This document shows positions 3,221-44,635 of a stretch of 64,000 nucleotides of DNA, piece after piece. Position 1 is the first letter of the stretch. Each line of letters opens with the position of its first letter. A model generated the notes under the pieces. The model was not told the origin of the DNA and searched no databases. It worked only from the letters and a program-made list of their open reading frames with translations. Origin of the DNA: a virus; the IMG/VR virus record IMGVR_UViG_3300050026_000261, positions 1 to 64,000 of that record; one strand, written 5' to 3'. The position numbers and the translations under genes were made by a program.

Positions 3221-3230
3221 CAGTTGCGAG

Positions 3231-3495: not shown

Positions 3496-3552
3496 TCAGC
3501 AACCAGTAAATGACGAATCGCTTGCTGGAGTAAAGGGAAATGGTATTTTTTT

Positions 3553-3602
3553 AGTTGCGGAAAATAGGCGTTTTACCCCCTAAAAGTTGCGGAAAAGAGG
3601 CG
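3553..3602 (+). repeat. Two 18-bp direct repeats before gene at 3609
   Basis: AGTTGCGGAAAATAGGCG (3553-3570) recurs at 3585-3602 with one change (T to G), 32 bases apart. The second copy contains the ribosome-binding site of the gene at 3609. A protein binding these sites could link origin activity to expression of that gene. Confidence 0.7.
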
Positions 3603-3608
3603 TGCCCA

Positions 3609-3932: not shown

Positions 3933-3934
3933 TC

Positions 3935-4901: not shown

Positions 4902-4918
4902 AGGGAGGCTGATACTCG

Positions 4919-5410: not shown

Positions 5411-5445
5411 CTTAAACAAAGTGCCAAAAACGTGCTATCCTTATT

Positions 5446-5495
5446 TTGGCGAAACGAGTCAGTAATTTAGATTAAAAACACTATGGGATGTGTTT
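5446..5495 (+). promoter_or_regulatory. Promoter-like region and RBS hairpin for HNH gene
   Basis: TTGGCG (5446-5451) and TAGATT (5468-5473) are spaced 16 bases. AAACAC (5476-5481) pairs with GTGTTT (5490-5495), presenting a TATGGGAT loop that contains the ribosome site. The same hairpin design precedes the cargo genes at 10357 and 34038. GCCAAAA at 5423 and TTTTGGC near 5444 also form an inverted repeat. Confidence 0.45.
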
Positions 5496-10356: not shown

Positions 10357-11040
10357 ATGGGTAAGATTATTGATTTAACAGGGCAGAAATTTGATAAGCT
10401 TTTGGTAAAACAATTTCATGGAATATCTTTGAGCAATCGGCAGGCGACATGGCTCTGCCAGTGTGCCTGTGGTAGAGAAGTAATTAGAAACTCTACTTGC
10501 CTAAGGAATAAAAGTATTACCAAAAACTGTGGGAAGCCCGGTTGTGGTAATACTTATTTTGAGGAAAACGGTCATCTTGTTGGGTTGACATTTAAAGGAG
10601 AAAGATATTTATTAGATAAAGAGGATTATTCTAAAATATGTAACCTTACTTGGATACGCGATCTTGCAAGAGGGTATATTTATGCCAGAAAAACGCACTC
10701 TAAAACGGCTATATATATGCATCATTTAATCATAGAAGCTCCTAATGGCTGCATAGATCATATAAATTTAGACAAGTCGGACAACAGGAAAGATAATCTT
10801 AGGATATGCACTATTCAACAAAATAGTTTTAATCGAGGAAAACACAAAGGGAAGCGTTTGAGTATTTATAAAGGAGTAACACAAAACGCAAAAAGGAATA
10901 AATATATTGCTCAAATTCGTAAGGAAGGTAAGATTTATAGATTAGGTTATTTTGAAACAGAAGAAGAGGCTGCTTTTGCATATAACAAAGCAGCGATAGA
11001 GATGTTTGGAGAGTTTGCGAAACTTAATGATATTGAATAA
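10357..11040 (+). CDS. Homing endonuclease: zinc ribbon, HNH and AP2 domains
   Basis: Protein of 227 residues. Residues 5-60 have the LTGQKFDKLLV lead followed by CQCACG and a CG..CG pair, a zinc-ribbon DNA-binding module. HNH core at about 125-155: MHHLIIEAPNGCIDHINLDKSDNRKDNLRI contains the catalytic His, Asn and DNR elements. Residues 170-227 form an AP2 domain (YKGVTQN, YFETEEEAAFAYNKAA, FGEFAKLN). Free-standing homing endonucleases of this build spread between phage genomes by cutting alleles that lack them. It sits as a cassette between the portal and Mu-F-like genes. ATG start behind AGGAGG in a hairpin loop. Confidence 0.92.
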   Translation: MGKIIDLTGQKFDKLLVKQFHGISLSNRQATWLCQCACGREVIRNSTCLRNKSITKNCGKPGCGNTYFEENGHLVGLTFKGERYLLDKEDYSKICNLTWIRDLARGYIYARKTHSKTAIYMHHLIIEAPNGCIDHINLDKSDNRKDNLRICTIQQNSFNRGKHKGKRLSIYKGVTQNAKRNKYIAQIRKEGKIYRLGYFETEEEAAFAYNKAAIEMFGEFAKLNDIE

Positions 11041-11968: not shown

Positions 11969-12874
11969 TTGACATTACCCCTGAACGATATTGTAAGCGT
12001 GACTATATATTTGGCTCAAAATCTCAGTATACAAGGAGTGATTATTCCGGTGGCAAACAATATTGCAAATCTTCCCCCGGTGACAGGCCGTATTTTGGAT
12101 GAAAATTCAATCCCCTTTAATATCGCCAATTTTTGGGAGTCAATCTGTTCGAGTGGCTACGAGACTGGTGCAACCGGCGGATCAACCAATATCTCCGCGG
12201 CGACCACTCCGACGTTTGAAATCGCCGTAGACCTGAACGTTGTTCAAAATGCTTTTCAGACCGTTACATTGAACCCTGCAGGCTTGACATCAGGACTATT
12301 GATCGCCAGCGCGATGCAGACGGCGATTCAGGCGTTAGGTGGGAATTATCAATGGGTGACTGTGGCCTTTACTGGCGGCGTCTATGTGATCACTTCAGGC
12401 ACCATCGGGCCGGGGTCAAAGGTAAGGATCGCGGCAGGGCCGACGAACGACGTAGCGGCTACTCTCAAGATTGGGGCAGCGAATGGCGCAGTGGACACCG
12501 ATGGCAAGATTACGGGGCTGCCTACTCAAGTCTCTGGGAGTATAGTTGCACAAGCAAACCTCGGTACTGGCACAACCGTAGCCCAATTACCGTCAGTATC
12601 ACCAGGGGTTTCCGGCAATGCCCGCCTTCATATCTTCGGCACTGGTGCTTTTGATGTACAGGTTGTTGGCCTCTTGAATTCAACTGATACTACTTGGATG
12701 GTTATTCCTGCAAGTCCTGCGGCAGTTCCTTCCGGCCTGCCAAGCCTGGCGCAGGTGACTGATGTAACGGCAGAAGGAGTTTATGACTTTGACGTTCAGG
12801 GGTTCTATGGAGTTGCTCTGAATGTTGTCGCTGTTGTAACAAGCGTCAGTGCGGTAGGGTGGTGGACAGTCTAA
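11969..12874 (+). CDS. Virion-associated beta-rich protein, capsid or spike decoration
   Basis: Structural-looking protein of 301 residues with no recognised catalytic motif. The first 12 residues (MTLPLNDIVSVTI) resemble the start of the tail sheath at 24211. Residues about 70-170 form a Gly/Thr/Ala-rich beta domain with YVITSGTIGPGSKVRI and VAATLKIG. The same pattern is found in the protein at 16489 (YVITSALLGSTSQVVV, IAATLKLT), so the two genes share a domain. The C-terminus reads as another beta sandwich. TTG start behind GAGGTGATG. Probably a decoration or fibre-like protein. Confidence 0.6.
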   Translation: MTLPLNDIVSVTIYLAQNLSIQGVIIPVANNIANLPPVTGRILDENSIPFNIANFWESICSSGYETGATGGSTNISAATTPTFEIAVDLNVVQNAFQTVTLNPAGLTSGLLIASAMQTAIQALGGNYQWVTVAFTGGVYVITSGTIGPGSKVRIAAGPTNDVAATLKIGAANGAVDTDGKITGLPTQVSGSIVAQANLGTGTTVAQLPSVSPGVSGNARLHIFGTGAFDVQVVGLLNSTDTTWMVIPASPAAVPSGLPSLAQVTDVTAEGVYDFDVQGFYGVALNVVAVVTSVSAVGWWTV

Positions 12875-14530
12875 ATGAAAGATAGATCAGCAGAAAGATT
12901 GGCGCGAGCAGCTTTGACCCCATCCTTCATTTCCCAGTTAGGCCGGCCTCCGCGAGTACTCATGGTGACGGATAGTATCAACGTATCGCCTAACATTACG
13001 CCTAACCTGCAAGCTATGATACCAGGATTGCAGGAGTTCGGTTATTATGCGACCACTTTCAGCGGATCTCAGGCACCTATGGGTATGCTCAACTTGGCAA
13101 CAGACATACAGTCGTACTGCCAACAAGGGAACCTGATACCGAATAGCAGCAACTGGGCAGCTACGTGGATTTTAGGTAATGTCACCCTAACAAGTGGAAC
13201 AAGCCCGACAACTGGGGCCAATGTTAAAGCGGTAACGGCAGCAGGGCAGAGTGGTCAGTATATGGAGTTATTCTTTACGGTTCCCAGTGGCCCGCCGACC
13301 TCATTTACCTTTAGCGTAGACGTTGAAGCCGGAACGATGCAATCTTTGAATATCACGATTTATAACGTCACCAAAAGTGGCTCTTTAAAGGGGAATGTTT
13401 TCAACCCAACCGATTTTCAGTCGATTATGACTGGGCTTCCAACTACGTTAACAATGACCGTGTTAAATTCAGATGGGGTTGGGTGGAGCGTTGGTGATTC
13501 CATCAGAGTTATGATGCTGCCCAACTCTGTGAGTTCTGCTGCTTGCACCTTCTACGCATCCAACATGAGGGTGAACGCTGGTGGTATCCCTGCTCCGTAC
13601 CATGCTACAACGGGGACTGCCGATCCGGTTTCTGCCTCTGCATGGTTGAATACCAATACGTCCATAGACAGAACGCTATTCGATTTATGCGTAATCGAGT
13701 TTTCCCGCAACGATATGGGCACTGTGGATGCCTTGAATTTTGAACAAGCGATCTCCGGTTTAATAAGCGCAGCGGCACAACTTTGTGGCAGGGTTATGGT
13801 AGAAACGCCTCCTCCTCTTGCTGCGGCAGGTTTAGCAAGTTGGAGTTCGACGGATACCTTTGTATCCAGTGGATTCTACCGGGCATTGAAAAGGGCAGCA
13901 GCGAGGCATGGGGCATATTTCTATGATGCCTACAACGCCTTTAAAAATCTTGTATCTAGTGGACAGTTCACGATTGCCCAACTCATGCAGTCAAACTTAG
14001 AGCACGCGACCGACTCAAGCAACTATCCGTTGCCTCCATCTCCTGGGATAGCTCAATATATTAATGCTCAGTACAGCGTTTTAACTCAGCCCTATGACCA
14101 GCCAGCCAGGGCATTAAGCAGGACACCTTGCCTGAGACTTGGGGGGCAACCTACAGGATCGTTCGCATGGACAAGATTTACTGGTGCTGGGACATGGATG
14201 ACGGAATTGGCTTATGGCTATGTCAGCGCATATAGCTCTCCAGAAATCACTTACGCAATGGCAAGTTCTACTCCAGGAGACACCCTGACGTTTCCGAATG
14301 TCTACGGTAAAAACATCGGTGTGATTCATCTTTGTGTCGAAAGTGCTGCGGGTAGTTATATGGTTACTATAGACGGTCAGTTAATTAACACATTCAGTAA
14401 CTTGAACTCTGGGTTGCAGGATCAACCCAGGGGCCAGTGGTTGGCAAACGGCCTCCCAGACGGTCCTCATACTGTTGTGCTAACGGTAGTGTCTGGGCAG
14501 TGCCCGATCATCGGCGTAGTTGGTTGCTAA
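12875..14530 (+). CDS. SGNH-hydrolase-like virion esterase with carbohydrate-binding insert
   Basis: Protein of 551 residues that fits the SGNH (GDSL) esterase fold. VLMVTDSIN at about 29-37 is the nucleophile block, CVIEFSRNDMG near 270 is the SRND oxyanion block, and a D..YP-type segment near 375 (ATDSSNYPLPP) stands where the DxxH block is expected. The His is not obvious, so activity is uncertain. The insert at about 88-240 (NSSNWAATW...) looks like a carbohydrate-binding beta sandwich similar to that in the baseplate protein at 34679. The C-terminus is another beta domain. SGNH virion enzymes remove O-acetyl groups from surface glycans. Confidence 0.68.
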   Translation: MKDRSAERLARAALTPSFISQLGRPPRVLMVTDSINVSPNITPNLQAMIPGLQEFGYYATTFSGSQAPMGMLNLATDIQSYCQQGNLIPNSSNWAATWILGNVTLTSGTSPTTGANVKAVTAAGQSGQYMELFFTVPSGPPTSFTFSVDVEAGTMQSLNITIYNVTKSGSLKGNVFNPTDFQSIMTGLPTTLTMTVLNSDGVGWSVGDSIRVMMLPNSVSSAACTFYASNMRVNAGGIPAPYHATTGTADPVSASAWLNTNTSIDRTLFDLCVIEFSRNDMGTVDALNFEQAISGLISAAAQLCGRVMVETPPPLAAAGLASWSSTDTFVSSGFYRALKRAAARHGAYFYDAYNAFKNLVSSGQFTIAQLMQSNLEHATDSSNYPLPPSPGIAQYINAQYSVLTQPYDQPARALSRTPCLRLGGQPTGSFAWTRFTGAGTWMTELAYGYVSAYSSPEITYAMASSTPGDTLTFPNVYGKNIGVIHLCVESAAGSYMVTIDGQLINTFSNLNSGLQDQPRGQWLANGLPDGPHTVVLTVVSGQCPIIGVVGC

Positions 14531-14535
14531 AACCC

Positions 14536-15063
14536 TTACGGGAGATTCGTTAACGGCATAGATTTAATGAATATGGCAGGGCTACCTGCAAAAATCGAGT
14601 GCGAGGGAACATCGGTTATCACTACATAATTTGCACCAATAGCGATATCATCGCCTATATTGACGGGGCCTAGAATAGCAACACCGCAAAATACCTTAAC
14701 CTTATCTCCAATTATTGGGACTCTGCGACCATTACGATTGCTGTAACTGTCTTTCATGCCGATAGTAGTATTTTGATATAGCGTAAAATTGTTACCTATT
14801 TCAACATTAGGGCCAATAACGATGCCGACAGGGTGAATAACACGAAAACCTGGACCAATTGTTGCGCTTGAATCTATTTCGGCACCAAAAAGAAAGCGTC
14901 CAAAATTTGTAAAAAAGTCAGAAAGAATGAGAAAATGGTTCCTGTAAAACCAGTTAGAAATACGATAATTTACAACTAGCCAAAAGGGAGAAAAGCAAAA
15001 AAAACCTCCAATCAATCGTAGCGGCGTTAATCTGCTGACACGATAATCGTCTTTAATTGACAT
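14536..15063 (-). CDS. Left-handed beta-helix O-acetyltransferase
   Basis: Serine-acetyltransferase-like hexapeptide-repeat enzyme of about 175 residues. Repeats run through IDSSATIGPGFRVIHPVGIVIG and VEIGNNFTLYQNTTIG, followed by VAILGPVNIGDDIAIGANYVV and the closing DVPSHSIFAGSPA. The His in the IHP segment is the usual catalytic base. Small CysE-like members either acetylate serine or O-acetylate capsule and wall sugars. It is one of only two minus-strand genes and converges with the esterase gene, 5 bases apart. The ATG ending at 15063 is better spaced from AAAGGAG than the ATG at 15069. Lysogenic conversion is the likely role. Confidence 0.87.
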   Translation of the reverse strand: MSIKDDYRVSRLTPLRLIGGFFCFSPFWLVVNYRISNWFYRNHFLILSDFFTNFGRFLFGAEIDSSATIGPGFRVIHPVGIVIGPNVEIGNNFTLYQNTTIGMKDSYSNRNGRRVPIIGDKVKVFCGVAILGPVNIGDDIAIGANYVVITDVPSHSIFAGSPAIFIKSMPLTNLP

Positions 15064-15121
15064 GATCATGCTCCTTTAAAAAGATGTATTTAGCATAATA
15101 TTCGGATAATGTTTAAGAATC

Positions 15122-15159
15122 CCTTCTCGCGCTTTCGGAAGGGCGCTGACGCGAGAAGG
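15122..15159. repeat. 10-bp inverted repeat in divergent intergenic region
   Basis: CCTTCTCGCG (15122-15131) and CGCGAGAAGG (15150-15159) are perfect complements separated by 18 bases. There is no T tract, so this is more likely an operator or recombinase site than a terminator. It lies between the divergent acetyltransferase and recombinase genes. Confidence 0.6.
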
Positions 15160-15206
15160 AATAGGACAAAAGAACGTATTTTCTGGTTAGATATTGTTGG
15201 ATAGGA

Positions 15207-15341
15207 CATGATATGATACCGTAGAAGCAGACATAAGGGATCGGCCTGATCAGCTGGTCCTGGTGCGCTCCCTGGGCACACCCCTTGTCTGCTTCATCTC
15301 TTCCAGGGGCCAAAAAACCACCAGGGAGGGGTCATATCATG
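15207..15341 (+). promoter_or_regulatory. Long nested inverted repeats in recombinase leader
   Basis: CATGATATGA (15207-15216) is complementary to TCATATCATG (15332-15341), which includes the recombinase start codon. Inside it GAAGCAGACA plus AGGG (15224-15239) pairs with CCCCTTGTCTGCTTC (15281-15295), and a smaller GGTG/CACC hairpin lies within. An extended -10 TGATATGAT overlaps the outer arm. The transcript could hide the start codon, or the DNA could be a recombination site. Confidence 0.55.
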
Positions 15342-16175
15342 CTTTTATCTCAGGCTTGGTCCGTCTATGAGGCGGACAAGTTCCTGGCCGGCTACTCGCC
15401 GGTCACACTCAAAAGTTACCGTCTACAGATCAACCTACTTATCAGGGGCATCGGGGATCTCGAGATCGGTGAGGTCACACTGGTGCAGCTCAAAAGCTAC
15501 CTTGCTGCCCAGACTCATTTAAAGCCGGCCTCGTTGGGGCACCGGGTCAGGTTCATCCGATCATTCTTCAACTGGGCGCATCAGGAGGGCTTCATCCCAC
15601 TTAACCCGGCATACAAGCTCTTTGAACCCAAGATAGGTCAACGGTTGCCCAAAGCATTGAATGAAGAGGATACTGAGATGCTCCGGGAAGGCTGCAAGTC
15701 AGCCCTCGAGCACGCCCTGATCGAATTTGCCTATACCACCGGCTGCCGGGTAGGGGAGATGTACCGCCTCGATCGGAATCAGATCAACTGGGAGCAGAGG
15801 TCGGCCATTGTTCTAGGGAAAGGCGACAAGGAGCGGGAAGTCTATTTTAGCATCAAATGCGGAATCTGGCTGAAGAAGTACCTACTTAATCGACACGACC
15901 AAGATCCGGCCCTGTTTGTGACGGAGCGAGCTCCGCATAGAATGAGCATCTCGGAGATCCGGTACATCGTCAAGCGAGTGGCCAAGAAGAGTGATGTCCA
16001 GGCCAACGTCTATCCGCACAAATTGAGACACAGCTATGCGACCCATTTATTAAATAATGGGGCGCCACTGGAAGCAATCCAGTCGTTTTTAGGGCATGCA
16101 AAGATCGAAACGACCCGTATATATGCGAATCTGAGCGGGCCGCGAAGAAGAGAACTGTATCAAAAGTATTTTTAG
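15339..16175 (+). CDS. Tyrosine recombinase (integrase, XerC/D size)
   Basis: Recombinase of about 278 residues with a SAM-like N-terminal DNA-binding domain and a complete catalytic set: Arg in [12 protein letters not shown] near 135, Lys in LGKGDKERE near 164, [10 protein letters not shown] near 226, His in LGHAKIETT near 252, and the nucleophile in RIYANLSG near 260. It would cut and rejoin DNA for integration, excision or local inversion. ATG 15339 follows GGGAGGGG; the frame is open upstream but lacks a ribosome site. It lies in the head-gene module beside the acetyltransferase, away from the regulatory genes where phage integrases usually sit. Confidence 0.92.
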
Positions 16176-16187
16176 GACATAACCAAG

Positions 16188-16209
16188 CCGCCTTTCGGGG
16201 CGGTTTTTT
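16188..16209 (+). terminator. Rho-independent terminator
   Basis: CCGCC (16188-16192) pairs with GGCGG (16199-16203), followed by TTTTTT. It closes the recombinase cassette. Confidence 0.75.
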
Positions 16210-16240
16210 CATTCCCCCCCTGGAAGGTGGTGATGAATAT

Positions 16241-16423
16241 ATGCCATTGGAAGAAGGCAGTTCAAAAGCTGTGATCGGGCACAACATAGGCGAACTTGAG
16301 AATGCCGGACATAAGCCTTCGCAGGCCATTGCCATAGCTTTCAAAGAGGCCGGCGAGTCAAAAGATACCGGCCACCTCTCCGGTATGGATGCGATTCTCA
16401 GCCATCCACTGTCCAACAAATAG
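16241..16423 (+). CDS. Small conserved phage protein (SKxVIxxNIxEL type)
   Basis: Protein of 60 residues with the pattern [33 protein letters not shown]. This matches a short conserved protein found in many phage structural modules and some bacteria: a helix-turn-helix-like pair with a Gln-Ala-Ile-Ala-Ile-Ala helix. Its biochemical role is not known to me. It starts at ATG 16241 behind GGAAGGTGGTGA and is isolated between two terminators (16188 and 16432). Confidence 0.75.
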
Positions 16424-16431
16424 GTTTCACA

Positions 16432-16459
16432 GCGCCTCCCTGTGAGGTGCTTTTTTATT
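16432..16459 (+). terminator. Rho-independent terminator
   Basis: GCGCCTC (16432-16438) pairs with GAGGTGC (16444-16450) with one G-U pair, then TTTTTTATT. Confidence 0.8.
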
Positions 16460-16488
16460 ACCAAAACTCAAAAAGGAGGCACAAAACA

Positions 16489-17226
16489 ATGCCATTTCCC
16501 AGCGCCAATTTCCAGATCACCAACCAGGTAGGTTTCTCAATCGCTAACGGTGTTTTCATCAACGGCACCGCTGGGGTCGGCACCGCCGGGACATTGACTT
16601 CCGCGGCTAGCCCTGCAACCACCCTGTCTGGTATCACTGGCCCAAACTTCAACATCCAGCTTGATGGCGACCCGACGCCCCGCAATATCGTATTAACCAA
16701 CACCGATGCGACAGGGGCAGCTATTGCCGGCGAGATTCAATCGGTGATGCAGGCGCTGACTGGCGTACCAGCGAGCTACAAGACAGCGACCTGCGCCTAC
16801 ACCAGTTCGAAGTATGTTATCACATCCGCTTTGTTGGGTAGCACATCGCAGGTTGTAGTGACTCCTGGCGCCACCGCAACCGGATCAACAACGGACATCG
16901 CCGCCACGCTGAAATTGACCACAGTTACAGGAGCGGTTGCCGTCCAGGGTACAGACACCGGTATATTCCAGACTGCCGCAGGAGCGCAGAATCCCTACGT
17001 AGCGCAGGAGAATACCCGCTCCCGGCTCTGGGTGACATCAGATACTGCAGGCTATCTGTACCTGATCAAGGATGGCATTGCCAGATTACTGAATGGCGGT
17101 ACGACTATGACCGTCCAAGTTCCAGTGATAGTGACGGATCTCCCGATCATGTTCGGGTCTACCTATAACATTGCCCATGCGGCAGCCGGAGCAAAGCTTA
17201 AAGTCGAATGGCTCGGCGGTATGTAG
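16489..17226 (+). CDS. Beta-rich virion protein sharing a domain with gene at 11969
   Basis: Protein of 245 residues, Ala/Thr/Gly-rich and almost free of charged residues, typical of phage decoration or fibre proteins. Residues about 60-150 (NIVLTNTDATGAAIAGEIQ, YVITSALLGSTSQVVV, IAATLKLT) repeat the domain seen at 11969. A C-terminal region (LWVTSDTAGYLYLIKDG) looks like a second beta domain. It starts at ATG 16489 behind AAAGGAGGC; the longer frame from 16447 runs through the terminator. Likely attached to the head, since it precedes the protease-scaffold gene. Confidence 0.6.
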   Translation: MPFPSANFQITNQVGFSIANGVFINGTAGVGTAGTLTSAASPATTLSGITGPNFNIQLDGDPTPRNIVLTNTDATGAAIAGEIQSVMQALTGVPASYKTATCAYTSSKYVITSALLGSTSQVVVTPGATATGSTTDIAATLKLTTVTGAVAVQGTDTGIFQTAAGAQNPYVAQENTRSRLWVTSDTAGYLYLIKDGIARLLNGGTTMTVQVPVIVTDLPIMFGSTYNIAHAAAGAKLKVEWLGGM

Positions 17227-28585: not shown

Positions 28586-28622
28586 ATCCCTCCGTGGAGT
28601 ATAATACTCTCCAAGGGGGGAT
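28586..28622 (+). promoter_or_regulatory. Promoter inside near-perfect 37-bp palindrome
   Basis: TATAAT (28600-28605) is centred in GAGTAT-A-ATACTC (28597-28609), itself flanked by ATCCCTCC (28586-28593) and GGGGGGAT (28615-28622), which pair with one G-T. The -10 is therefore buried in an operator-like palindrome just before the cargo gene at 28627. Confidence 0.6.
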
Positions 28623-28626
28623 TGGG

Positions 28627-29592
28627 ATGGATAAGGAGCAAAAACCTAAACGAAAAGGTCTTCCGATATGGCTTTGGATTATTATTGGTTTTTTTGTGCT
28701 GGCTATTATTGGCAGCATAAGCAACAGGAATGCTCCTTCGACACCTACAACAGAACCAAGCTCGGTTAGCCCTCAACAATCAAGTGCTCCAATACCACCA
28801 CCAACAATACCACCACCAACAATACCACCTGTTCAAGTATCAGCCACAACTTTGACAGCCGATTATGTAAATAATCAATTTGCGGCGGATGAAGAATATA
28901 AAGGTAAGATTTTAGATGTATCGGGTACTGTATCTGATATAGATAGAGATATATTTGGGAATCCATTTATAGAATTTTACACTGGCCAGGGTATGGAAAA
29001 TGCTCTTTTTACTTTTTCTAATAATAATGCTGCTTCTTTAGCTAAAATTAGTGTTGGTGAGCCATTAACTATTCAGGCCACATGCAAAGGTAAATCGGGC
29101 ACTGCAGTGGATATGGAAGATTGTAGCATTATCCCAAACGGGCAAGAATCAACACAAGCATCTGCTACTCCAACTGTTCAGCCTCCAACTCCAATAGTGC
29201 AAAGTCAAGCGATTCAGAGTAATAATGATGTAGTTGCTGCCGGAGAGACTGCTAATACGATTACAGGATTGACACTTAATCAGCAGTATTCTGAGCTTTA
29301 TAATTATCTTGATCCAGATGATCAAGCTACGACTTCTCAGCAAGAGTTTATTACTTCTCAGCAAACCCCAGGGTATGTGTCTGGGAGTTATACTTACAGT
29401 ATAGATTATGCAGATATTGTAATGGTGCCTACATGGGCTGATAAAGGAACTGGGAATACATATAATAATGTTGCGAAAGTGCCGGTTACATGGGCTGGAA
29501 AGACTAGCGGTAAGTCAGTAACATTAATAATGCATTTGATTAAAGCTTCTGATGGAACATGGAGAACGTTTTTGGATTGGCCAGCGCAATAA
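28627..29592 (+). CDS. Membrane-anchored OB-fold cargo protein
   Basis: Protein of 321 residues. A basic head then one transmembrane helix at about 12-32 (LPIWLWIIIGFFVLAIIG) anchors it with the bulk outside. A Pro/Ser/Thr linker with PPPTIPPPTIPP follows. Residues about 85-160 fit the tRNA_anti-like OB fold (YKGKILDVSGTVSDI, ALFTFSN, LTIQATCKGKSG). A second linker and a C-terminal alpha-beta domain (YSELYNYLDPDDQATTSQQ, WRTFLDW) complete it. More AT-rich than its neighbours, with own promoter and terminator, so a moron. Superinfection exclusion or host modification is a guess. Confidence 0.8.
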   Translation: MDKEQKPKRKGLPIWLWIIIGFFVLAIIGSISNRNAPSTPTTEPSSVSPQQSSAPIPPPTIPPPTIPPVQVSATTLTADYVNNQFAADEEYKGKILDVSGTVSDIDRDIFGNPFIEFYTGQGMENALFTFSNNNAASLAKISVGEPLTIQATCKGKSGTAVDMEDCSIIPNGQESTQASATPTVQPPTPIVQSQAIQSNNDVVAAGETANTITGLTLNQQYSELYNYLDPDDQATTSQQEFITSQQTPGYVSGSYTYSIDYADIVMVPTWADKGTGNTYNNVAKVPVTWAGKTSGKSVTLIMHLIKASDGTWRTFLDWPAQ

Positions 29593-34678: not shown

Positions 34679-36382
34679 TTGCCAGACATACAACGATACC
34701 TCTCACTTATAACTAGTCAGCATCGCGATAAGCCCAACTTCATAGCCATGGTCACATCATTCCTATCTCACGCCGATGACACCACAACCTGCGCCGCATC
34801 CCTTAATGATGCCTTCGACATCGACCAGGCCGTAGGAGCACAGCAAGATGTTCTGGGCACCATTCTGGGCGTTTCCCGGGTAGTCACGTTTCAACCCACG
34901 GATGCATTCGGCCCCGTTTCGGGCACCTTTGCCCGCGCTTCCGTTGCCTACGACTACCTTACAGGGGCAGAAGTGGCCTCTGGCATTCCCCGCTATGACA
35001 CAACTCTGTTCAACCAGGGGATCATGATCGAGGAAGGCACGACCAACCTTGCATTATACTCCAGTGATCTGACTAATGCCGCGTGGGTTAAAAGCGGCAG
35101 TCCGACAGTGACGTATAGCGCGCCCTATTCCAAGGTAGTAAACGGTGCTGGTGCAAGTAGCATAGACCAAACTGGCTTTACGGCCAATGGCGGTGCTTAC
35201 AGTTTCGAGGTAGTTGCTAAAGCCGTTTCCGGCTCTCCTCAGATATGGATGGGGATATACGATGCCACCGCTAGCACGTTTTTGGCACAAAGTAATGTAA
35301 AAACGCTTTCCACGTCTAGCGAGACATCGTTTTCTGTCACCATTGCTTCAACCATAAGCGGTCACACTCTGGAAATTTATCTCCAATTCAACACTGCCTC
35401 GGGGCAGTATTATGTCCGTTCTTGCCAGCTTGAGCAAAAGGGATATTCGACCAGTTGCATGGAAACCACTTCGACAACTTTAGCCCGCGCCGCCGAAACC
35501 CTCACCATCCCCAACGCGGGAATATTCACACAGGGGAATTGGGCAGTAGAGTTAGTTTATATCCCAACGGATACTGCTATTCCTACGGGAGGTTTTGAGT
35601 TATTTTCCTATTTAATTGATTCAAACGATAGACTCTACACCAATGTTAATAATACTGGAGCACTTGCCTTAAATGTTGAGTCTAGTGGTACTCTCTATTC
35701 TATTAGTACGTCAGCAAGTTTTTTAACGCTGGGCAATGCATATGCGATTATGATAGCTGGCAATGGGTCTGTTATACGTTTTTGCATCAATGGAGTGCAA
35801 ATCGGATCTGATACTGCCTATGTTGAGCCTGTAGGGTCACTCCCGACTAATATGTACGTCGGAAGCTATCCAACTGGTGTTTATCAGGCCAACGGCATCA
35901 TAGACGACCTCCGTATCTCATCCAGGGCGAGGACGCTGGCCGAGCACCAGGCGTATGTGAGCAGTGGATTGCCACAGGTAGTAGACACTGCTACAACCTT
36001 TCTACTTCCGTTCGATGGCAGCCTTACTTATTATGTTTCAACTTCACCTATTCTTGATGATGCGACCTATCAGCTTGTCCTGCAGGCTCGAATAGCGCAG
36101 AACATGTGGGATGGCACTACGCCGGGTATCTATTCCCTATTCGCTTCATTGTTCCCTGGATCTGTGTATCTGATCATCACGGACAACCAGAATATGACCT
36201 GCAACGTCCTGGTAATCGGGTTGCCATCTATTTTGCAACAGAATCTGATCTCAAATGGGTACATTATACCGAGGCCGGAGGGTGTTCAGTTCATTTATTC
36301 TTATCCTGCAAATCCTGTTTTCAGTTATGGCATGGATAATACGGTATTTAAAGGATATGACGGTGGCTACTGGACGTCGTAA
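34679..36382 (+). CDS. DUF2612 baseplate protein interrupted by lectin-like domains
   Basis: Protein of 567 residues. Residues 1-75 (LSLITSQHRDKPNFIAMV, AVGAQQDVLGTILGVSR) and about 445-567 (ILDDATYQLVLQARIAQNMWDGT, LYSLFPG-like, MDNTVFKGYDGGYW) are the two halves of DUF2612, a baseplate-fibre connector. Between them lie about 370 residues: a carbohydrate-binding beta sandwich (NLALYSSDLTNAAWVKSG) and a LamG/concanavalin domain ending DDLRISSRARTLAEHQAY. The baseplate fold is therefore split by a sugar-binding insertion. TTG start at 34679 behind GGGGGTGA. Confidence 0.85.
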   Translation: MPDIQRYLSLITSQHRDKPNFIAMVTSFLSHADDTTTCAASLNDAFDIDQAVGAQQDVLGTILGVSRVVTFQPTDAFGPVSGTFARASVAYDYLTGAEVASGIPRYDTTLFNQGIMIEEGTTNLALYSSDLTNAAWVKSGSPTVTYSAPYSKVVNGAGASSIDQTGFTANGGAYSFEVVAKAVSGSPQIWMGIYDATASTFLAQSNVKTLSTSSETSFSVTIASTISGHTLEIYLQFNTASGQYYVRSCQLEQKGYSTSCMETTSTTLARAAETLTIPNAGIFTQGNWAVELVYIPTDTAIPTGGFELFSYLIDSNDRLYTNVNNTGALALNVESSGTLYSISTSASFLTLGNAYAIMIAGNGSVIRFCINGVQIGSDTAYVEPVGSLPTNMYVGSYPTGVYQANGIIDDLRISSRARTLAEHQAYVSSGLPQVVDTATTFLLPFDGSLTYYVSTSPILDDATYQLVLQARIAQNMWDGTTPGIYSLFASLFPGSVYLIITDNQNMTCNVLVIGLPSILQQNLISNGYIIPRPEGVQFIYSYPANPVFSYGMDNTVFKGYDGGYWTS

Positions 36383-36395: not shown

Positions 36396-37001
36396 TTGTC
36401 AGCAACGACCAATTTTGTCACATTTAACTCCGCATTAAATAATAGTGAATCAGATTCAACCTATCAGGCAGATAGCACCGTAACAGGTGGCCTCGCTAGC
36501 GCAATAGCGAACCCGCAAATGCATAATAAGTTATTCCATCAAGTCAGCATTATGGTCAAGGCCATTGCCAACGTCCTGGTCGCCCAAGGGCAGTCGGCAC
36601 TGGACACATCGGAGTCTGCTTTGACGGCAGCCTTGACCGCGGCATTGTTACCGGCGGCAGTGGCCACGGCTACGATAGCGGCATCGACGAAAGAGCAGAA
36701 ACTTACCACGACCGGCCAGACAACCGTAGCGACATTCACGCCTGCAGCCAATCAGAATTTACTGATCGGGGTGTCAGTCAGGGTAATAAACGCCATAACA
36801 GTGGTATCCGCCGAAGTCGACTACACCGATGCCGGGGGGAATGCCGCTACGCAGACTTTTTACACTAACGTCTCGCTGCCTGTTGGATCCAATCCCACGC
36901 TGATGATTCTGATCAACGCCAATGCCGCGCCGGTATCGGTTAAGGTGACAGCGGGGACCGCGAACAACGCATACTGCTCTGCCAGTATTGTGGGGGTGTA
37001 G
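36396..37001 (+). CDS. Tail fibre-type protein
   Basis: Unrecognised protein of 201 residues, placed right after the DUF2612 gene where fibre genes lie. N-terminal helical Ala-rich region (residues 1-95), C-terminal beta domain (TVATFTPAANQNLLIGVSV, VKVTAGTANNAYCSASIVGV) resembling phage fibre tips. TTG start behind AAGGAGGAATG. Receptor binding is plausible. Confidence 0.65.
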   Translation: MSATTNFVTFNSALNNSESDSTYQADSTVTGGLASAIANPQMHNKLFHQVSIMVKAIANVLVAQGQSALDTSESALTAALTAALLPAAVATATIAASTKEQKLTTTGQTTVATFTPAANQNLLIGVSVRVINAITVVSAEVDYTDAGGNAATQTFYTNVSLPVGSNPTLMILINANAAPVSVKVTAGTANNAYCSASIVGV

Positions 37002-37003: not shown

Positions 37004-37837
37004 ATGCCAATCATCACACCAGGTAATGCCCAACCCAGCAACGTCGACGCGGGAATAATCTTCAACGCAGGAGCTAACTGGCAAGCGGTCGGTACTATTC
37101 CCTATGAAGGTGCGGTCGTGCTCACGCCCAGCGGGAATAACACAGTCGCTATTCCTGCCGGCCATCACAACGGCGCGGGGTACGTTGCTGAGGTGAGCGT
37201 ACCGGCGGTCAAGGTGCAATCTGATACCACCATCGCAGGAGTACAAGGTACTATGCCCGAGAAGGGCTCCCCCACGCTGCAACCAGGAGCGAGTATCACA
37301 CCGGGACACTATAGTGGGGGGTCGGTAGCAAGTTCGATACTCAGTGTTCAGTATGGAACAATTACAATTGCAGCAAACACAGGCAGTGCCACTGCGACCA
37401 TAAGTTCTGTTAATATGGCTGAATCAGTAGTGATTCCTCTTGGATTCGCTAGTGTTGGGGGAGGCTACCCCTGCGATGCTGTAAATTTAACGCTTACAAA
37501 TTCAACTACTGTTACTGCAGCACGGAATGGGATAGGTACAGCTACAAGTGTTGTTGTGAACTTTGTCGTTGTCCAGTTTAACAACCTGAAATCTCGTCAA
37601 TCAGGATCAATAAATTTAATTGGTGTATCTTCTGCAACAACGACAATAACATCGGTAAACCCGGCAAAGGCAATTTGTTTTTTAACCGGCTGGACAAATA
37701 GCAGTAATAATGGTGGATCCTACGAGTATGGTATCGACCCCTTGATAACTCTCACTAATTCGACAACAGTAACCGGATTGTTGTACTATTCAAATACTGG
37801 AGTGACAGCTTATTTTACAGTTTGCGAGTTTTATTAA
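37004..37837 (+). CDS. Tail fibre/receptor-binding protein
   Basis: Protein of 277 residues. The middle has the TTIAGVQGTMPEKGS repeat motif common in tail fibres of Firmicute phages. The C-terminus is two similar beta segments, each with a Ser-Gly/Ala-Thr strand and a VPLGF or FLTGW core (AESVVIPLGFAS, AKAICFLTGWTN), ending with NSTTVT repeats. ATG 37004 two bases after the previous stop. Likely contacts the host cell. Confidence 0.7.
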   Translation: MPIITPGNAQPSNVDAGIIFNAGANWQAVGTIPYEGAVVLTPSGNNTVAIPAGHHNGAGYVAEVSVPAVKVQSDTTIAGVQGTMPEKGSPTLQPGASITPGHYSGGSVASSILSVQYGTITIAANTGSATATISSVNMAESVVIPLGFASVGGGYPCDAVNLTLTNSTTVTAARNGIGTATSVVVNFVVVQFNNLKSRQSGSINLIGVSSATTTITSVNPAKAICFLTGWTNSSNNGGSYEYGIDPLITLTNSTTVTGLLYYSNTGVTAYFTVCEFY

Positions 37838-37849
37838 ATAGAGGTGGAT

Positions 37850-38599
37850 ATGACTCAATCAGATATCACAGATGCCTGCGTCTCCATCGGTGAGGCCAGA
37901 ACCCAAACAGGCGTCCTCAAAACATTAATGCTCTCGTTCGCAGCGGGGGCATTTATCGCGTTCGGCGGCCTATTGATGGCCGTCGTGGTGTCCGGCCTTC
38001 CTTCGATGGGTACGCTGAGCAAATTGATTGGCGGTCTGCTGTTCCCGGTGGGGCTGGTGTTGGTCGTGGTGACAGGCGCGGATCTGTTCACCGGGGATTG
38101 TTTATACGCCACTGTCTCATCTAGGTGGGCTGCTGGCAGGTTAGGCATGATCAGCATCAGCAGGGTCATGTCTCTCTCCTACCTAGGCAACCTTATCGGT
38201 GCTCTATTCGTCGCCTACCTGGCGATAGCATCAGGGATTCTCACGCCAGAGGCTCAGAATTGGCTCAGGGCGGCAGCAGTGGCAAAAGTCCACCTATCCT
38301 TCGTCCAGGCATTTACCAGGGGGATCGGGTGCAACATCCTCGTTTGCCTGGCGCTATGGTTGGCGCTCTCTGCGGATAGCCTGACGGGCAAAATCCTGGG
38401 CATATGGATTTGCGTTGCGGCTTTCGTGGCTATGGGGATGGAGCACTCGATTGCGAATATGTTTTTCGTTCCGCTGGGAATTCTCTGCGGGGCGCATGTG
38501 AGTTGGAGTCAGTTCTGTCTGGCCAACGAGCTGCCGGTGACGCTGGGGAACATTGCCGGCGGCGCATTGGTGGGGTTGCTGATGCTGCTCCAGAAATAA
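37850..38599 (+). CDS. Formate/nitrite (FNT) family channel
   Basis: A multi-pass membrane protein of 249 residues with FNT hallmarks in order: FAAGAFIAFGGLL, VTGADLFTGDCLY with the pore Thr, LSYLGNLIGALFVAYL, FTRGIGCNILVCLALWLA, AMGMEHSIANMFFVPLGI containing the central pore His, and LPVTLGNIAGGALVG near the C-terminus. Pentamers of this family pass formate, nitrite, hydrosulfide or lactate. It lies between the fibre gene and the holin-like genes, in the same direction and tightly packed. ATG 37850 behind GAGGTGG. All conserved pore residues are present, so it is likely functional. A holin-like role is an alternative. Confidence 0.92.
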   Translation: MTQSDITDACVSIGEARTQTGVLKTLMLSFAAGAFIAFGGLLMAVVVSGLPSMGTLSKLIGGLLFPVGLVLVVVTGADLFTGDCLYATVSSRWAAGRLGMISISRVMSLSYLGNLIGALFVAYLAIASGILTPEAQNWLRAAAVAKVHLSFVQAFTRGIGCNILVCLALWLALSADSLTGKILGIWICVAAFVAMGMEHSIANMFFVPLGILCGAHVSWSQFCLANELPVTLGNIAGGALVGLLMLLQK

Positions 38600-38904: not shown

Positions 38905-39270
38905 GTGCCCAAACTCAACAACCTGATCGCCAACATCCTGGCTGACGTTCTTTCGACCATGGCCTGCTTCTGGATCGTCACCGCCATGGTGGTTGTCGTT
39001 CTCTTCTGGCAGCGACCTACATCCCTTGTTGGTTGGATAACCTACATCAGTACGGCAATATTCCAGGCAAGCGCGTTGCCGGTATTGGCGTTTGTGGCCA
39101 AGAAAGAAGGGGTAGCGCAGCAGGCTTTGCTCCAAGACACCCATGATCAGGTTATGAGCGAGCTAAGGCTGATCAGCGAGTCACACGACGATTTGAGGGA
39201 GCTGGTCAGTCAGGTACACATCAAGGTTAATGCTGGCGAGGTCGATGTGATAGTAACAGAAGAGGGGTGA
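38905..39270 (+). CDS. Two-helix membrane protein, holin-like
   Basis: Protein of 121 residues with two membrane helices (about 15-37 TMACFWIVTAMVVVVLFW and 43-65 ITYISTAIFQASALPVLAF), then a soluble helical tail KKEGVAQQALLQDTHDQVMSE. The design is like DUF1003 or iron-permease-like small membrane proteins, and holin would fit the location. GTG 38905 two bases after the previous stop. Confidence 0.6.
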   Translation: MPKLNNLIANILADVLSTMACFWIVTAMVVVVLFWQRPTSLVGWITYISTAIFQASALPVLAFVAKKEGVAQQALLQDTHDQVMSELRLISESHDDLRELVSQVHIKVNAGEVDVIVTEEG

Positions 39271-39495: not shown

Positions 39496-39750
39496 ATGGA
39501 ATTCCCCTTTATTGCAACAATCAGTTGTGGAATCCGCGATGCCATTGCCACGCTCGATGAGGGCGTGAAGTATCTGACATGGGATAAACCCGAAACCGAT
39601 CCATCAGGGACGCTTATAAAGGAAACCGCAGAGATGCGGGATGCCCTGGAGAGGCTGGCGAAACTGGCCGATAAGTGGGGCACTATCGACAACAACGGAA
39701 TGACGCCGTTCCGTATCCGGCTGGAGATTGAGGGCGGCGAATTGCTATGA
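39496..39750 (+). CDS. Hypothetical protein
   Basis: Unrecognised protein of 84 residues with a helical middle (EMRDALERLAKLADKWG) and a short beta ending. It overlaps the next gene (ATGA). Ribosome site is weak. Nothing indicates function beyond its place in the lysis region. Confidence 0.55.
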   Translation: MEFPFIATISCGIRDAIATLDEGVKYLTWDKPETDPSGTLIKETAEMRDALERLAKLADKWGTIDNNGMTPFRIRLEIEGGELL

Positions 39751-40262
39751 GCGACCCGTGTAAAGGATGCCAAATCAAAACGGCAACCTGCCAGGGCTGG
39801 TGCCTTGTATACCGGAAATGGAAGGAGGTAACCAAATTGGCAACAACTCTTGATCAATCAATCCATGAAGCGGCGGCTGCGATCTGCCTCGAACTCGGCG
39901 TCGCTCCAATAGCAGTGAATGGCGGCTTGCTCAAAGCCTGGATATTGCAAGAGAAAGGCAACACCTCGGGGGCGGCATGGGACAACAACAACCCGCTAAA
40001 TACCACGGAGCCGGTCTATCCTGATGCAAATATCAACAGCGATGGCGTCAAACGATACGATAGCCAACAAGAGGGCGTTTTCGCCTGCTGTAAAACACTG
40101 AGAGACGGCAACTATCCGCACCTGCTAGCTGGACTCCAAGATGCCAACGCAGAGGAGTTCTTTGCGCAGCCGACAGAGCTTAACTCGCCGGGTGGCTGGG
40201 GTACAGGATGGCAGCCGGTCTATGATTTGTACCAGGAGATTTTGAGCGGCGAGCTGGTCTAG
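39747..40262 (+). CDS. Lysozyme-like cell-wall hydrolase
   Basis: Protein of 171 residues, or 141 if it starts at TTG 39837 behind AAGGAGGTAACC, the better ribosome site. The globular part has LLKAWILQEKGNTSG, NNNPLNTTEP, GVKRYDSQQEGVFACCKTL and LAGLQDANAEEFFAQ, as in glucosaminidase/lysozyme-like phage endolysin domains; the Glu in LQEKG is the likely catalytic residue. The first 30 residues carry four cysteines and could be a separate metal-binding lead. Probably the endolysin. Confidence 0.7.
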   Translation: MSDPCKGCQIKTATCQGWCLVYRKWKEVTKLATTLDQSIHEAAAAICLELGVAPIAVNGGLLKAWILQEKGNTSGAAWDNNNPLNTTEPVYPDANINSDGVKRYDSQQEGVFACCKTLRDGNYPHLLAGLQDANAEEFFAQPTELNSPGGWGTGWQPVYDLYQEILSGELV

Positions 40263-40579: not shown

Positions 40580-41986
40580 ATGCAACTTTCAAACGGGATG
40601 CACATCGGAAAACTTCCCCCGAGGATCGATCCACGCACACTGCAATTCAATAGATACCGCACCGGACTCCCGACGCCCCCGGATCAGATCGGCCACGAGA
40701 ACCTAATTGCCGCGGCAAATTGGGGGATGCTGGGCAACGGTCCCGACAACACTGTACAGCCCGGTTTTCAGGGCGCAGGCGATTGCGTTTTCGCCGGTGG
40801 CGATCACGAGACACTGCTTTGGACAACCGAGGGCGGCAACCCGGCTGAGTTCAACGGCAAAACAGCCATATCCGATTACTCCGCTGTGACCGGGTACGTG
40901 ATCGGCGACCCCAATACGGATGTGGGCACGGACGTTATAACTGCGCTCAACTACCGACGCAAGACCGGGCTGATCGACATATTAGGCAACCGGCATAAGA
41001 TCGGCGCTTACGTTGCTCTCGACGTGTCCAAGATCAATGCGGGCGATTTCTCCGAGTTCGACGAAGCTCTCTTTTTATTCGGCGCTGTGGCGATCGGTAT
41101 CCGGTTCCCGGCTTCGGCCATGACTCAGTTCGATAATGGTCAGCCGTGGGATGTGGTAGCGGATGATGGCGGGATCGAAGGCGGCCACTATATCCCTGCG
41201 GTCGAGAAATACCCCGACGGTACAAGCGATTGTGTTACCTGGGCGAAACCTCAGCGAGTAACGGCGGCATTCTGGAGCAAGTATGTCGACGAGGCGTATG
41301 CCATATTATCTCCGGAGATGCTGAGGCAAGACAAATCTCCAGAAGGCTTTGACCTGGCGCAGTTGCAGACGGATCTGGCCGAGATCGACAGCGCGAATAC
41401 GGCAGGCCCCGCGGTGACCGGCATAGATCCCAGCAGCGGCCAGGCAGGTAGCAGCGTGACCATTACCGGATCAGGGTTCACCGGGGCGACGCAGGTTCTG
41501 TTCGGCGGCGTGGCGGCTAATTTCAGCGTTGGCGACGACACAGCTATTACCGCTATTGTCCCGGCAGGAACCGGAACCGTTGATATTGCGGTATACGTTT
41601 CGAGCATCCAGAGCGCTACAGGCACAGCCGATCAGTTTACCTATGCGGTTACTCCTGATCCCAGCAAGCAGATCATCGGACAGGTAGGCAATCCTGTTCT
41701 CCAGGCCTTCGGCAAATCAATCACCATGGACGTGGCGCCCGTTCTTCTCGATATAGGGGGTGGGGGCCGGGTGATGGTTCCGGTCAGGTTCGATGCTGAG
41801 TCTCGCGGTGACCAGGTTGACTGGGATGAGGCGACCAAGACGTTCACGATCACACCCGCGGTCGATCCTGCTACCGCGGCAGAGTTGGAAACTACCAAGG
41901 CCACCCTTGCCACCACCCAGGCCAAGCTGGCCGATGTATTATCGCTGCTGGCGAAGGTGAAAACAGACTTGGGTTTTCCCGGATAG
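40580..41986 (+). CDS. Papain-like cysteine peptidase with IPT domain
   Basis: Protein of 468 residues. Residues about 45-260 look like a papain-fold peptidase: GAGDCVFAGGDHE with the candidate nucleophile Cys at about 68, GGHYIPAVEKYPDG with the His near 205, then TWAKPQRVTAAFWSKYVDEAYAI. Residues about 275-355 are an IPT/TIG domain (GIDPSSGQAGSSVTITGSGF). Residues about 365-430 resemble a copper-amine-oxidase N-terminal-like wall domain (GRVMVPVRFDAESRGDQVDWD), and a coiled coil ends it. It may cut peptide bridges or surface proteins at lysis. Confidence 0.7.
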   Translation: MQLSNGMHIGKLPPRIDPRTLQFNRYRTGLPTPPDQIGHENLIAAANWGMLGNGPDNTVQPGFQGAGDCVFAGGDHETLLWTTEGGNPAEFNGKTAISDYSAVTGYVIGDPNTDVGTDVITALNYRRKTGLIDILGNRHKIGAYVALDVSKINAGDFSEFDEALFLFGAVAIGIRFPASAMTQFDNGQPWDVVADDGGIEGGHYIPAVEKYPDGTSDCVTWAKPQRVTAAFWSKYVDEAYAILSPEMLRQDKSPEGFDLAQLQTDLAEIDSANTAGPAVTGIDPSSGQAGSSVTITGSGFTGATQVLFGGVAANFSVGDDTAITAIVPAGTGTVDIAVYVSSIQSATGTADQFTYAVTPDPSKQIIGQVGNPVLQAFGKSITMDVAPVLLDIGGGGRVMVPVRFDAESRGDQVDWDEATKTFTITPAVDPATAAELETTKATLATTQAKLADVLSLLAKVKTDLGFPG

Positions 41987-42003: not shown

Positions 42004-42369
42004 ATGCAATTTAACAACCCTGTTTTTTGGCTAAGCGTCCTGGGCTATCTATACGGCATTGGAAAGCTGCTATACCCCGGGCTGGTCATTCCGAACTATG
42101 ACCTGAACGTGGTGGCAAACATCCTGGCCGGGGTCTTTGTTCTGGCTGGCTTGTGGACTGCGCACAAGCTGACCTGGGCGCAGGTCTGGGCATGGCTGGG
42201 TATCACCACGACACAGCCCAGCGCACAACCTGTAGGTGTACAGTACGCAAAGTACGCTGAGCCGATAAAACAGTTCACCACTGGCAAGAATGTCCTACCG
42301 GCGGCGAAGAAAACCTGCGACGAGCCGATTGTAGAATTGAACGATGCTCCGGACAAACCGGCAAAGTAA
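42004..42369 (+). CDS. Holin
   Basis: Protein of 121 residues. NPVFWLSVLGYLYGIGKLLYPG and ANILAGVFVLAGLWTAH give two membrane helices with the N-terminal NPxFW start seen in phi-LC3-like holins, followed by a soluble, charged tail. It lies last in the lysis cassette, just before the strong terminator. ATG 42004 behind AAAGGAG. Confidence 0.78.
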   Translation: MQFNNPVFWLSVLGYLYGIGKLLYPGLVIPNYDLNVVANILAGVFVLAGLWTAHKLTWAQVWAWLGITTTQPSAQPVGVQYAKYAEPIKQFTTGKNVLPAAKKTCDEPIVELNDAPDKPAK

Positions 42370-42426: not shown

Positions 42427-42462
42427 GCCCCCTGTCCCTAATCGGGATGGGGGGCTTTTTTT
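42427..42462 (+). terminator. Strong terminator ending the late operon
   Basis: GCCCCCTGTCCC (42427-42438) pairs with GGGATGGGGGGC (42444-42455), a 12-bp stem with two G-U pairs and loop TAATC, followed by seven T. It also separates the late operon from the convergent minus-strand gene. Confidence 0.92.
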
Positions 42463-43134: not shown

Positions 43135-43533
43135 ATGGGACAAGAATATAGAAGAACGCAAACTACAGTATCATTAATCAAATATCATTTTGTTTTCTGC
43201 CCCCGATACAGGCGCAAAGCATTAGTGGGAGAGGCCGAGAAGCGATTTAGGGAAATCCTGAAAAATGTTTGCGAGGAGAATGCATTCATCATCGTAGCCC
43301 AAGAAGTAATGCCTGACCACGTCCACTTATTTCTCAATACCTTGCCGTCGATCAGCCCCTCGGACATTATGGCAAAAGTGAAGGGAGTGACATCAAGAGA
43401 GTTACGGCGGGAATTCAAGCACCTGCAGCACTTGCCAAGCCTATGGACACGTTCATTCTTCTGCTCTACGGCAGGAAACGTATCCAGCGAAACCGTAGCC
43501 CGGTACATTGCTGAACAAAAGAAAAGGGGGTGA
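43135..43533 (+). CDS. tnpA: IS200-type Y1 transposase TnpA
   Basis: Protein of 132 residues with the HUH motif in VMPDHVHLFLNTLP near 60 and a C-terminal SSETVARYIAEQ helix bearing the catalytic Tyr. It cuts and joins single-stranded DNA at the TTAC and TCAA borders guided by end hairpins. Full length with no visible damage. Confidence 0.95.
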   Translation: MGQEYRRTQTTVSLIKYHFVFCPRYRRKALVGEAEKRFREILKNVCEENAFIIVAQEVMPDHVHLFLNTLPSISPSDIMAKVKGVTSRELRREFKHLQHLPSLWTRSFFCSTAGNVSSETVARYIAEQKKRG

Positions 43534-43537
43534 TAAG

Positions 43538-44635
43538 GTGCAAATCACAGTACAAGCTAAAATCACTCCAAACCAAGAGCAGCGTTATTTGCTAGATTCA
43601 ACCATGAAAGAATACATCAGTCTCGTCAATCGGATCGTTTCAGAATACATAATCGCTGAAAAGGACATGAAGTATACAACAAGAGACCTGGTTGCCACAC
43701 TACCAAGCGCAGTCAAAAACCAGGCCATTCAGGACGCTAAAAGTGTTTTCAAGAAATACACCAAGAACCTCAAGGCAAATACCAAAAGGCCGCCCGACCA
43801 ACAGAAAAAGATTAAAATACCCATTCTCAAAAAGCCCGTTGCGATTTGGAACAACCAGAACTATAACGTCAAAGGTGATATAGTCTCATTCCCGGTTATC
43901 ATCGAAGAAAAGTCAAAGCGCATCGAACTCAAGGTGATCATGACCGAATATCAAAAACAGCTTTTAGGTAACAGATTGGGCAGCCTCAGAATCACCCAAA
44001 AGTCCGGCAAATACATGGCGCAAATCGCTGTACAGGCGAAAGAGATTCCGGCAGCAGCCGGGCAGCCAATGGGCGTGGACCTTGGACTCAAAATCCCGGC
44101 TGTAGCCGTTGTAGATGGTGGTAAAACCAGATTTTTCGGCAATGGCCGTCAAAACAAATTCGTTAAACGTAAACACCGGTCAGCTAGACGCAAGCTAGGC
44201 AAACTCAAAAAATTAACGGCCATCCGAAGGCGTGACAACAAGGAACAGCGCTGGATGAAAGATACTGACCACAAAATCAGTCGCCAAATCATCAATTATG
44301 CCAAAGACAACCATGTGGCGACCATTCGCCTGGAAAAACTTTCTGGCATCCGCCAGACGGCAAGAAAAAGCCGTAAAAACGAAAAGAACCTGCATAGCTG
44401 GTCGTTCTATCGGTTGGCCCAGTACATCGAATACAAAGCAATTCTGGCAGGAATGAAGATAGAATATGTTGACCCGAAATATACCAGCCAGAAATGCCCT
44501 GTTTGCGGCGAACGGAATAAGGCCAACGATAGAATGTACAAATGTAGTTGCGGATTTAAAGGCCACCGGGATATTGTGGGAGCCTTGAATATCATATCTG
44601 CAACTGTGATAGATGGTAACAGTCTATCAGCCTAG
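43538..44635 (+). CDS. tnpB: RNA-guided nuclease TnpB
   Basis: Protein of 365 residues. The RuvC-like core is complete: GVDLGLKIPAVAV with the first Asp, TIRLEKLSGI with the Glu and GHRDIVGALN with the last Asp. The zinc finger has CPVCG then CSCG. GTG 43538 follows AGGGGGTGAT and gives the standard MQITVQAKITP start; the frame is open upstream but inside tnpA. It uses the omega RNA to cut donor joints next to the TTAC motif and so promotes retention. Confidence 0.93.
   Translation: MQITVQAKITPNQEQRYLLDSTMKEYISLVNRIVSEYIIAEKDMKYTTRDLVATLPSAVKNQAIQDAKSVFKKYTKNLKANTKRPPDQQKKIKIPILKKPVAIWNNQNYNVKGDIVSFPVIIEEKSKRIELKVIMTEYQKQLLGNRLGSLRITQKSGKYMAQIAVQAKEIPAAAGQPMGVDLGLKIPAVAVVDGGKTRFFGNGRQNKFVKRKHRSARRKLGKLKKLTAIRRRDNKEQRWMKDTDHKISRQIINYAKDNHVATIRLEKLSGIRQTARKSRKNEKNLHSWSFYRLAQYIEYKAILAGMKIEYVDPKYTSQKCPVCGERNKANDRMYKCSCGFKGHRDIVGALNIISATVIDGNSLSA

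Follow-up and report, generated by a model that had tools for sequence, protein, structure and literature searches.

A probable formate-type FNT channel gene of bacterial origin at the tail-fibre/lysis junction of an integrase-bearing phage

Channel genes of the formate/nitrite transporter (FNT) family are known from cyanophages: focA accompanies nirA on a cyanomyophage scaffold from an oxygen-minimum zone (Gazitua 2020, PMC8115048), as restated in a review (PMC9083009), and nirC is described in a 2023 PeerJ study (PMC9983427). Like the gene reported here, these are host-acquired FNT genes used as metabolic genes by a myophage; whereas they are cyanobacterial, linked to nirA and associated with nitrite, the present gene is of Bacillota type, belongs to a late operon, has formate-type kin and adjoins no nitrite reductase gene. 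FocA, the best-described cellular member, transports formate in both directions, and nine of its conserved pore residues, including the pore histidine and the omega-loop threonine, have been named (PMC9380403). A search of mainly open-access journal papers yielded no description of a phage FNT of the formate type. The earlier note's view that such a channel is not a normal phage gene holds in so far as phage FNTs are rare, but it overstates the case, given the published cyanophage FNTs and the FNT genes in other phage records. Phage-borne FNTs as such are already published, in the form of cyanophage nitrite cassettes; the apparent novelty here is that an anaerobe's phage bears an FNT of a formate-type lineage.

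The window, the whole stretch of 64,000 nucleotides that was analysed, comprises bases 1-64000 of a 68,702-base IMG/VR virus record, which has no terminal direct repeat and may therefore be incomplete. Genes for terminase, portal, head protease, major head protein, tail sheath, tape measure, baseplate hub and baseplate wedge form a run on one strand, accompanied by an integrase gene and, later, by helicase, nuclease and methyltransferase genes; this gene content indicates a contractile-tailed phage (myophage), which may be temperate. The head module holds more than 4 kb of extra DNA (11969-17226) with the integrase gene (15285-16175) and a reverse-strand hexapeptide-type gene, an insert that four related phage fragments lack, their corresponding gap measuring 0.4-0.9 kb. 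Behind the portal gene lies an HNH and AP2 domain gene, probably for a homing endonuclease (10357-11040), and the best PHROG match of a tail-module gene (28594-29592) is 'superinfection exclusion Sie-like' (E 1.6e-19). Features around the FNT gene, as far as the end of the late operon, are these:

34679-36382, plus strand: tail protein whose terminal parts are DUF2612 and whose central part is laminin-G-like (PF11041, E 6.9e-35; PF13385, E 7.5e-12; phrog_587)
36396-37001, plus strand: tail-fibre-like gene, its N-terminal part common to L139 and L145 (tblastn)
37004-37837, plus strand: fibre-like gene directly 5' of the FNT gene (phrog_38337, E 7.5e-8; relatives L016 and L017)
37840-37847, plus strand: ribosome-binding site AGAGGTGG, read from the sequence
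37850-38599, plus strand: FNT-family channel gene, 249 amino acids
38636-38902, plus strand: small protein with a coiled region preceding a single membrane segment, XhlA-like on visual inspection only; starts at TTG, preceded by GGAGGTG; no family match in Pfam or PHROGs
38905-39270, plus strand: small membrane protein, holin-like by topology only; no family match over the cut-off
39747-40262, plus strand: possible muralytic enzyme, by eye only; no family match
40580-41986, plus strand: phage protein with TIG and copper-amine-oxidase-N-like domains (phrog_19005, E 1.5e-28; PF01833, PF07833)
42004-42369, plus strand: small membrane protein, read from the sequence; last gene of the late operon
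42427-42455, plus strand: strong terminator at which the late operon ends, a 12-pair stem (9 G-C) followed by seven T (terminator scan)

The coordinates that the earlier note gave for the FNT gene are correct. A longer frame with a GTG start (37844-38599) is available, and the ATG at 37850, with AGAGG 5 bases upstream, is the better start. Only 12 bases separate the stop of the upstream gene from this ATG, which leaves no room there for a promoter private to the gene. The gene upstream contains two weak promoter-like matches; overall the promoter scan gave 8 matches against 5.2 (sd 2.7) expected, which is not above chance, while the terminator scan gave 12 sites against a shuffle mean of 4.9. 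Placement in a phage late operon, as originally proposed, is supported; phage genes lie on both sides and a terminator ends the run. The proposed position between tail fibre and holin-like genes stands for the fibre-like genes upstream and the small membrane-protein genes downstream, but the label 'holin-like' reflects membrane topology read by eye, and the genes at 38609, 38905, 39747 and 42004 had no match in PHROGs at E 0.1. No nitrite reductase gene was present among the nine neighbours of the FNT gene scanned in the window. Shortly past the late operon lies a TnpB-type IS605 gene (43508-44635).

The FNT fold is a helix bundle in which two helices are broken at the omega and S loops. The identification of the phage protein as an FNT-family channel is borne out by profile, pore and predicted fold. 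Its match to PF01226 (E 7.4e-71; 238.8 bits against a gathering score of 34.6; residues 8-246 of the longer, GTG-started frame) excludes a chance resemblance, and the three motifs first quoted for it (VTGADLFTGDC, GMEHSIANM and LPVTLGNIAGG) are all found. All nine FocA pore residues are identical in the phage protein (D78, T81, K146, N162, E198, H199, S200, N203 and N234), as are five further FocA positions (F75, L79, L89, F90 and F202) that we take to be pore-lining. An AlphaFold2 model from a 12-row alignment (pLDDT 87.5, pTM 0.85) predicts helix breaks at 76-79 and 195-199. With this model, Foldseek returned 65 PDB matches at E <=0.001, led by LCIA (TM 0.94) and then FocA (0.92); in BFVD the single match at E <=0.001 was a metagenomic phage 'Formate/nitrite transporter' of 19% identity. 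NCBIfam assignments fall short: the score for TIGR00790 (fnt) is 216.7 bits against a curated cut-off of 232.3, about 16 bits too low in a protein placed in the family by Pfam, pore residues and fold, and the equivalog cut-offs are reached neither for FocA (TIGR04060, 169.9 against 290.1 bits) nor for NirC (NF008595, 103.8 against 293 bits). The FocA proteins of E. coli and Vibrio (3kcu, 3kly) share the fold and the nine pore residues with the phage protein, but at about 35% identity and with a Y-L-R end that it lacks. LCIA of Chlamydomonas (9v2a) is the best solved match in both sequence and fold, but it is an algal bicarbonate transporter of 37% identity.

At its C-terminus the phage chain stops at the position of FocA Y278, without the equivalents of L279-R280 and without the 33-residue tail of its sister protein. 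An I/L-Y-L-R/K end of the last helix is a feature of FocA-like channels, and E. coli FocA cut at the matching point is unstable and inactive (PMC5572259). In the phage protein this motif is absent and the chain ends LLQK, whose positive anchor residue may stand in for the lost FocA end. Four tryptophans that are invariant among its kin are also substituted. The terminal branch is long (0.75 against 0.21 in its sister), so constraint may be relaxed. None of 8 pore columns has changed, against 23 of 124 columns overall, a difference that is not significant alone (P 0.18).

Protein searches found FNTs in four phyla (48 of 251, 50 of 297, 106 of 299 and 37 of 198 genomes), in one class (33 of 113) and in one family (9 of 20, with a class-level search giving these 20 genomes again). 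The phylogeny has 79 rows; of 122 loci with an FNT hit, 26 were removed as duplicates or as shorter than 180 amino acids, and 20 more near-redundant rows were removed by hand before the tree was built. Several long branches elsewhere in this tree were flagged as unsure, and members of the clade of interest are absent from the long rows listed. The phage protein is sister to that of a bacterial genome, G684 (locus L062), with support of 100/98, within a seven-row clade at 100/100. In identity, too, G684 is nearest (64-66%), with five genomes from G828's class next (56-57%), other full-length matches lying at about 49% or less. By its place in the tree, the phage gene is host-derived and of bacterial origin. 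Its relatives' clade appears to be of Bacillota type, judging from the phylum to which an Acholeplasmataceae-titled MAG (L003, G022) belongs and from clostridial-type neighbours such as fdxn_Clost.

The neighbours of the sister genes suggest, through guilt by association, that formate is the substrate of this clade. Formate dehydrogenase alpha genes lie in the fetched flanks of five of the six bacterial members (L082, L083, L126, L127 and L128); the sixth, L125, has no formate dehydrogenase gene within 16 kb, and none was present at any of four FNT loci lying further away in the family (L129-L132). In five of the six the FNT gene adjoins a sensor-regulator, always from a single family, the exception being L126, where the contig ends. 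The downstream parts of FdhA match TIGR01591 at E 1.9e-189 (L082) and 7.8e-206 (L083); in L082 two FdhA parts join through an in-frame TGA in a selenocysteine context (CARTUHAPT), and MoeA is encoded near the formate dehydrogenase. NuoF-type subunits are encoded between FNT and formate dehydrogenase in L083 and L127; tblastn detects them in L126 and L128 as well. The formate dehydrogenase region of G684 also contains a molybdenum-cofactor riboswitch, immediately downstream of the FNT gene (L082, 6755-6884, minus strand). No nitrite reductase gene was seen among the sister-gene neighbours read. These bacterial FNTs beside Sec-type formate dehydrogenases (L062/L082, L063/L083 and L126-L128) belong to the same clade as the phage protein at 54-66% identity and have the same pore residues, with S210 varying in one; the link to a formate-using anaerobe made in the earlier note is supported. 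They differ from the phage gene in being chromosomal, in adjoining a sensor-regulator and formate dehydrogenase and in having a longer C-terminal tail. Absence of formate dehydrogenase beside the phage gene (tblastn of the window and L015) is expected for a single captured gene.

Comparison with related phages indicates where the gene was added. The gene order from head to fibre is common to the window, the cultured Agathobaculum phage AB434P2 (L137), a prophage in genome G1210 (L139) and an IMG/VR contig (L145). In AB434P2 and the prophage, fibre genes are followed by holin-like and endolysin-like genes (by eye from translations) with no FNT gene between them; L145 stops short of this junction. 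The collinear arrangement without the channel identifies the FNT gene as cargo at the fibre-lysis junction, and such junctions often accept unrelated cargo. PF01226 was not detected in any of seven related phage fragments (five found by portal, two by fibre), most of which are too short to reach the site, and the baseplate hub and the protein encoded at 40580 found no relative as viral queries. In a prophage-based search for the host, the major head protein was present in 3 of 398 genomes, at 31-49% identity, and in none of the 10 genomes from which ten of the loci L002-L013 derive. A CRISPR array of 41 repeats (L128, about 1400-5900) lies close to G1140's FNT gene; its 40 spacers gave only chance matches of 11-13 bases to the phage record.

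FNT genes also occur in other phage records. Three IMG/VR scans for close viral relatives of the channel, one with a single protein and two with alignments, returned none twice and three enterobacterial FocA genes once; these scans depend on conserved peptides and may omit records very near the window. In the 'phages' collection 20 records match the window protein, all at less than 60% identity, and many are mere fragments, or contigs of bacteria classified as phage. When IMG/VR was screened for the pore motif with a DNA pattern, 13 contigs emerged, all 13 matching PF01226; three are enterobacterial FocA genes, probably in host flank, and the remaining ten carry seven different FNTs, one of them common to L027, L031, L033 and L035 and the others in L023, L025, L028, L029, L030 and L034. 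Anaerobic ribonucleotide reductase genes adjoin or lie near a short FNT gene in three of these seven: nrdD, nrdG and FNT are consecutive in L023 (6786-10132, plus strand); FNT then nrdD occur in L030 (2232-3780, minus strand); and nrdD, nrdG, three small genes (one a dUTPase by eye) and FNT occur in L027 (7131-11739, plus strand) and likewise in L031 and L033, while L035, with the same FNT, is too short to show these neighbours. NrdD was not found in the available stretches of the other four census lineages, and it is absent within the stretches covered of L028/G013 (220 of 238 kb), L029/G014 (180 of 182 kb), L142, L143/L144, L146, L147, L148 and L149. In the phage contig L142, the FNT gene adjoins a chaperonin-like gene (PF00118; 7781-10582, minus strand).

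The short phage FNTs (L023, L027, L028, L029 and L030) resemble the window gene in occurring in phage records, but they are only 25-32% identical to it, the four placed in the tree form a separate deep branch, and some lie beside nrdD/nrdG. In the best-studied class III ribonucleotide reductases, that of phage T4 included, formate is the electron donor (PMC4390871); some class III enzymes use thioredoxin instead (PMC4493059), and the enzymes of the short-FNT phages are recognized here only as NrdD/NrdG, of any subtype. A short FNT near nrdD/nrdG could supply formate for viral dNTP synthesis, a combination for which the accessible part of a survey of phage ribonucleotide reductases (PMC3653736) contains no mention of FNT. 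The combination suggests that phages put formate channels to more than one use. Neither NrdD and NrdG nor FdhA is encoded in the 68.7 kb of the window phage (tblastn), and the NrdD link therefore does not explain its FNT gene.

The balance of this evidence leans towards an intact, host-derived, formate-type channel that serves as a metabolic helper gene at the tail-fibre/lysis junction of a contractile-tailed, integrase-bearing phage. As a host-derived gene with phage genes on both flanks, it would be classed as an auxiliary metabolic gene. It would be transcribed late, together with the fibre and lysis genes, and its product would form a pentamer in the host membrane that passes formate, together with a proton, down its gradient. 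In a formate-metabolizing anaerobic host, the channel would vent formate from formate dehydrogenase or admit formate, and relief of a formate/electron bottleneck would sustain electron flow and energy supply during virion production; the benefit to the phage is inferred, and flow in either direction is possible. A wider proposal is offered more tentatively: on several independent occasions phages of anaerobes may have acquired formate channels as a module for handling formate, the window channel from a formate dehydrogenase operon to act late on the host formate pool, and short FNTs elsewhere with phage NrdD/NrdG, where formate brought into the cell would donate the electrons for making viral DNA precursors.

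Transport of another anion, such as nitrite, hydrosulfide, bicarbonate or lactate, would fit the variety of FNT substrates, the bicarbonate transporter LCIA as best solved match in sequence and fold, and the unreached NCBIfam FocA cut-off, but formate dehydrogenase near five of six sister genes and the lack of nitrite reductase among their neighbours make it rather unlikely. That the gene was captured from a host and is now under little or no selection, hitchhiking or decaying, is suggested by its long branch, lost tail and four replaced tryptophans and by the failure to find a viral relative of the subfamily in IMG/VR; an open frame with a good ribosome-binding site and tight spacing, and pore residues intact at 64% identity to the nearest relative, render this doubtful. 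Immediately downstream in the same operon are small membrane-protein genes, and a channel made with holin-like proteins might leak formate and protons, lower the proton motive force and so set or speed lysis. This role, raised in the earlier note, is unsupported beyond that position, and we regard it as decidedly improbable: every pore residue is retained, as expected of selective transport rather than a leak, FNT is missing from collinear relatives that do possess holin-like and endolysin-like genes, and the junction is of a kind that often takes unrelated cargo.

An assembly chimera of phage and host DNA, finally, would account for a gene that is bacterial by tree and richer in G+C (0.565) than the window mean (0.501). 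The earlier note would have recognized one by placement of the FNT within one host genus with host genes in the flanks; the protein does fall inside a bacterial clade, but the flanks are phage genes, on the same strand and 12 bases away on the upstream side, and codon use is that of phage late genes, whose fit (-1.187) is at least as good as that of the host genes of L082 (-1.223). With phage flanks on both sides and phage-like codons, a chimera is very unlikely indeed, and a host-derived helper gene remains the favoured account.

Formate is a main currency among anaerobic bacteria. A phage with its own formate channel could alter its host's electron disposal, and perhaps that of the host's partners, during infection, and the short phage FNTs that accompany anaerobic ribonucleotide reductase offer a direct way to test whether a channel, formate and viral DNA synthesis are linked.
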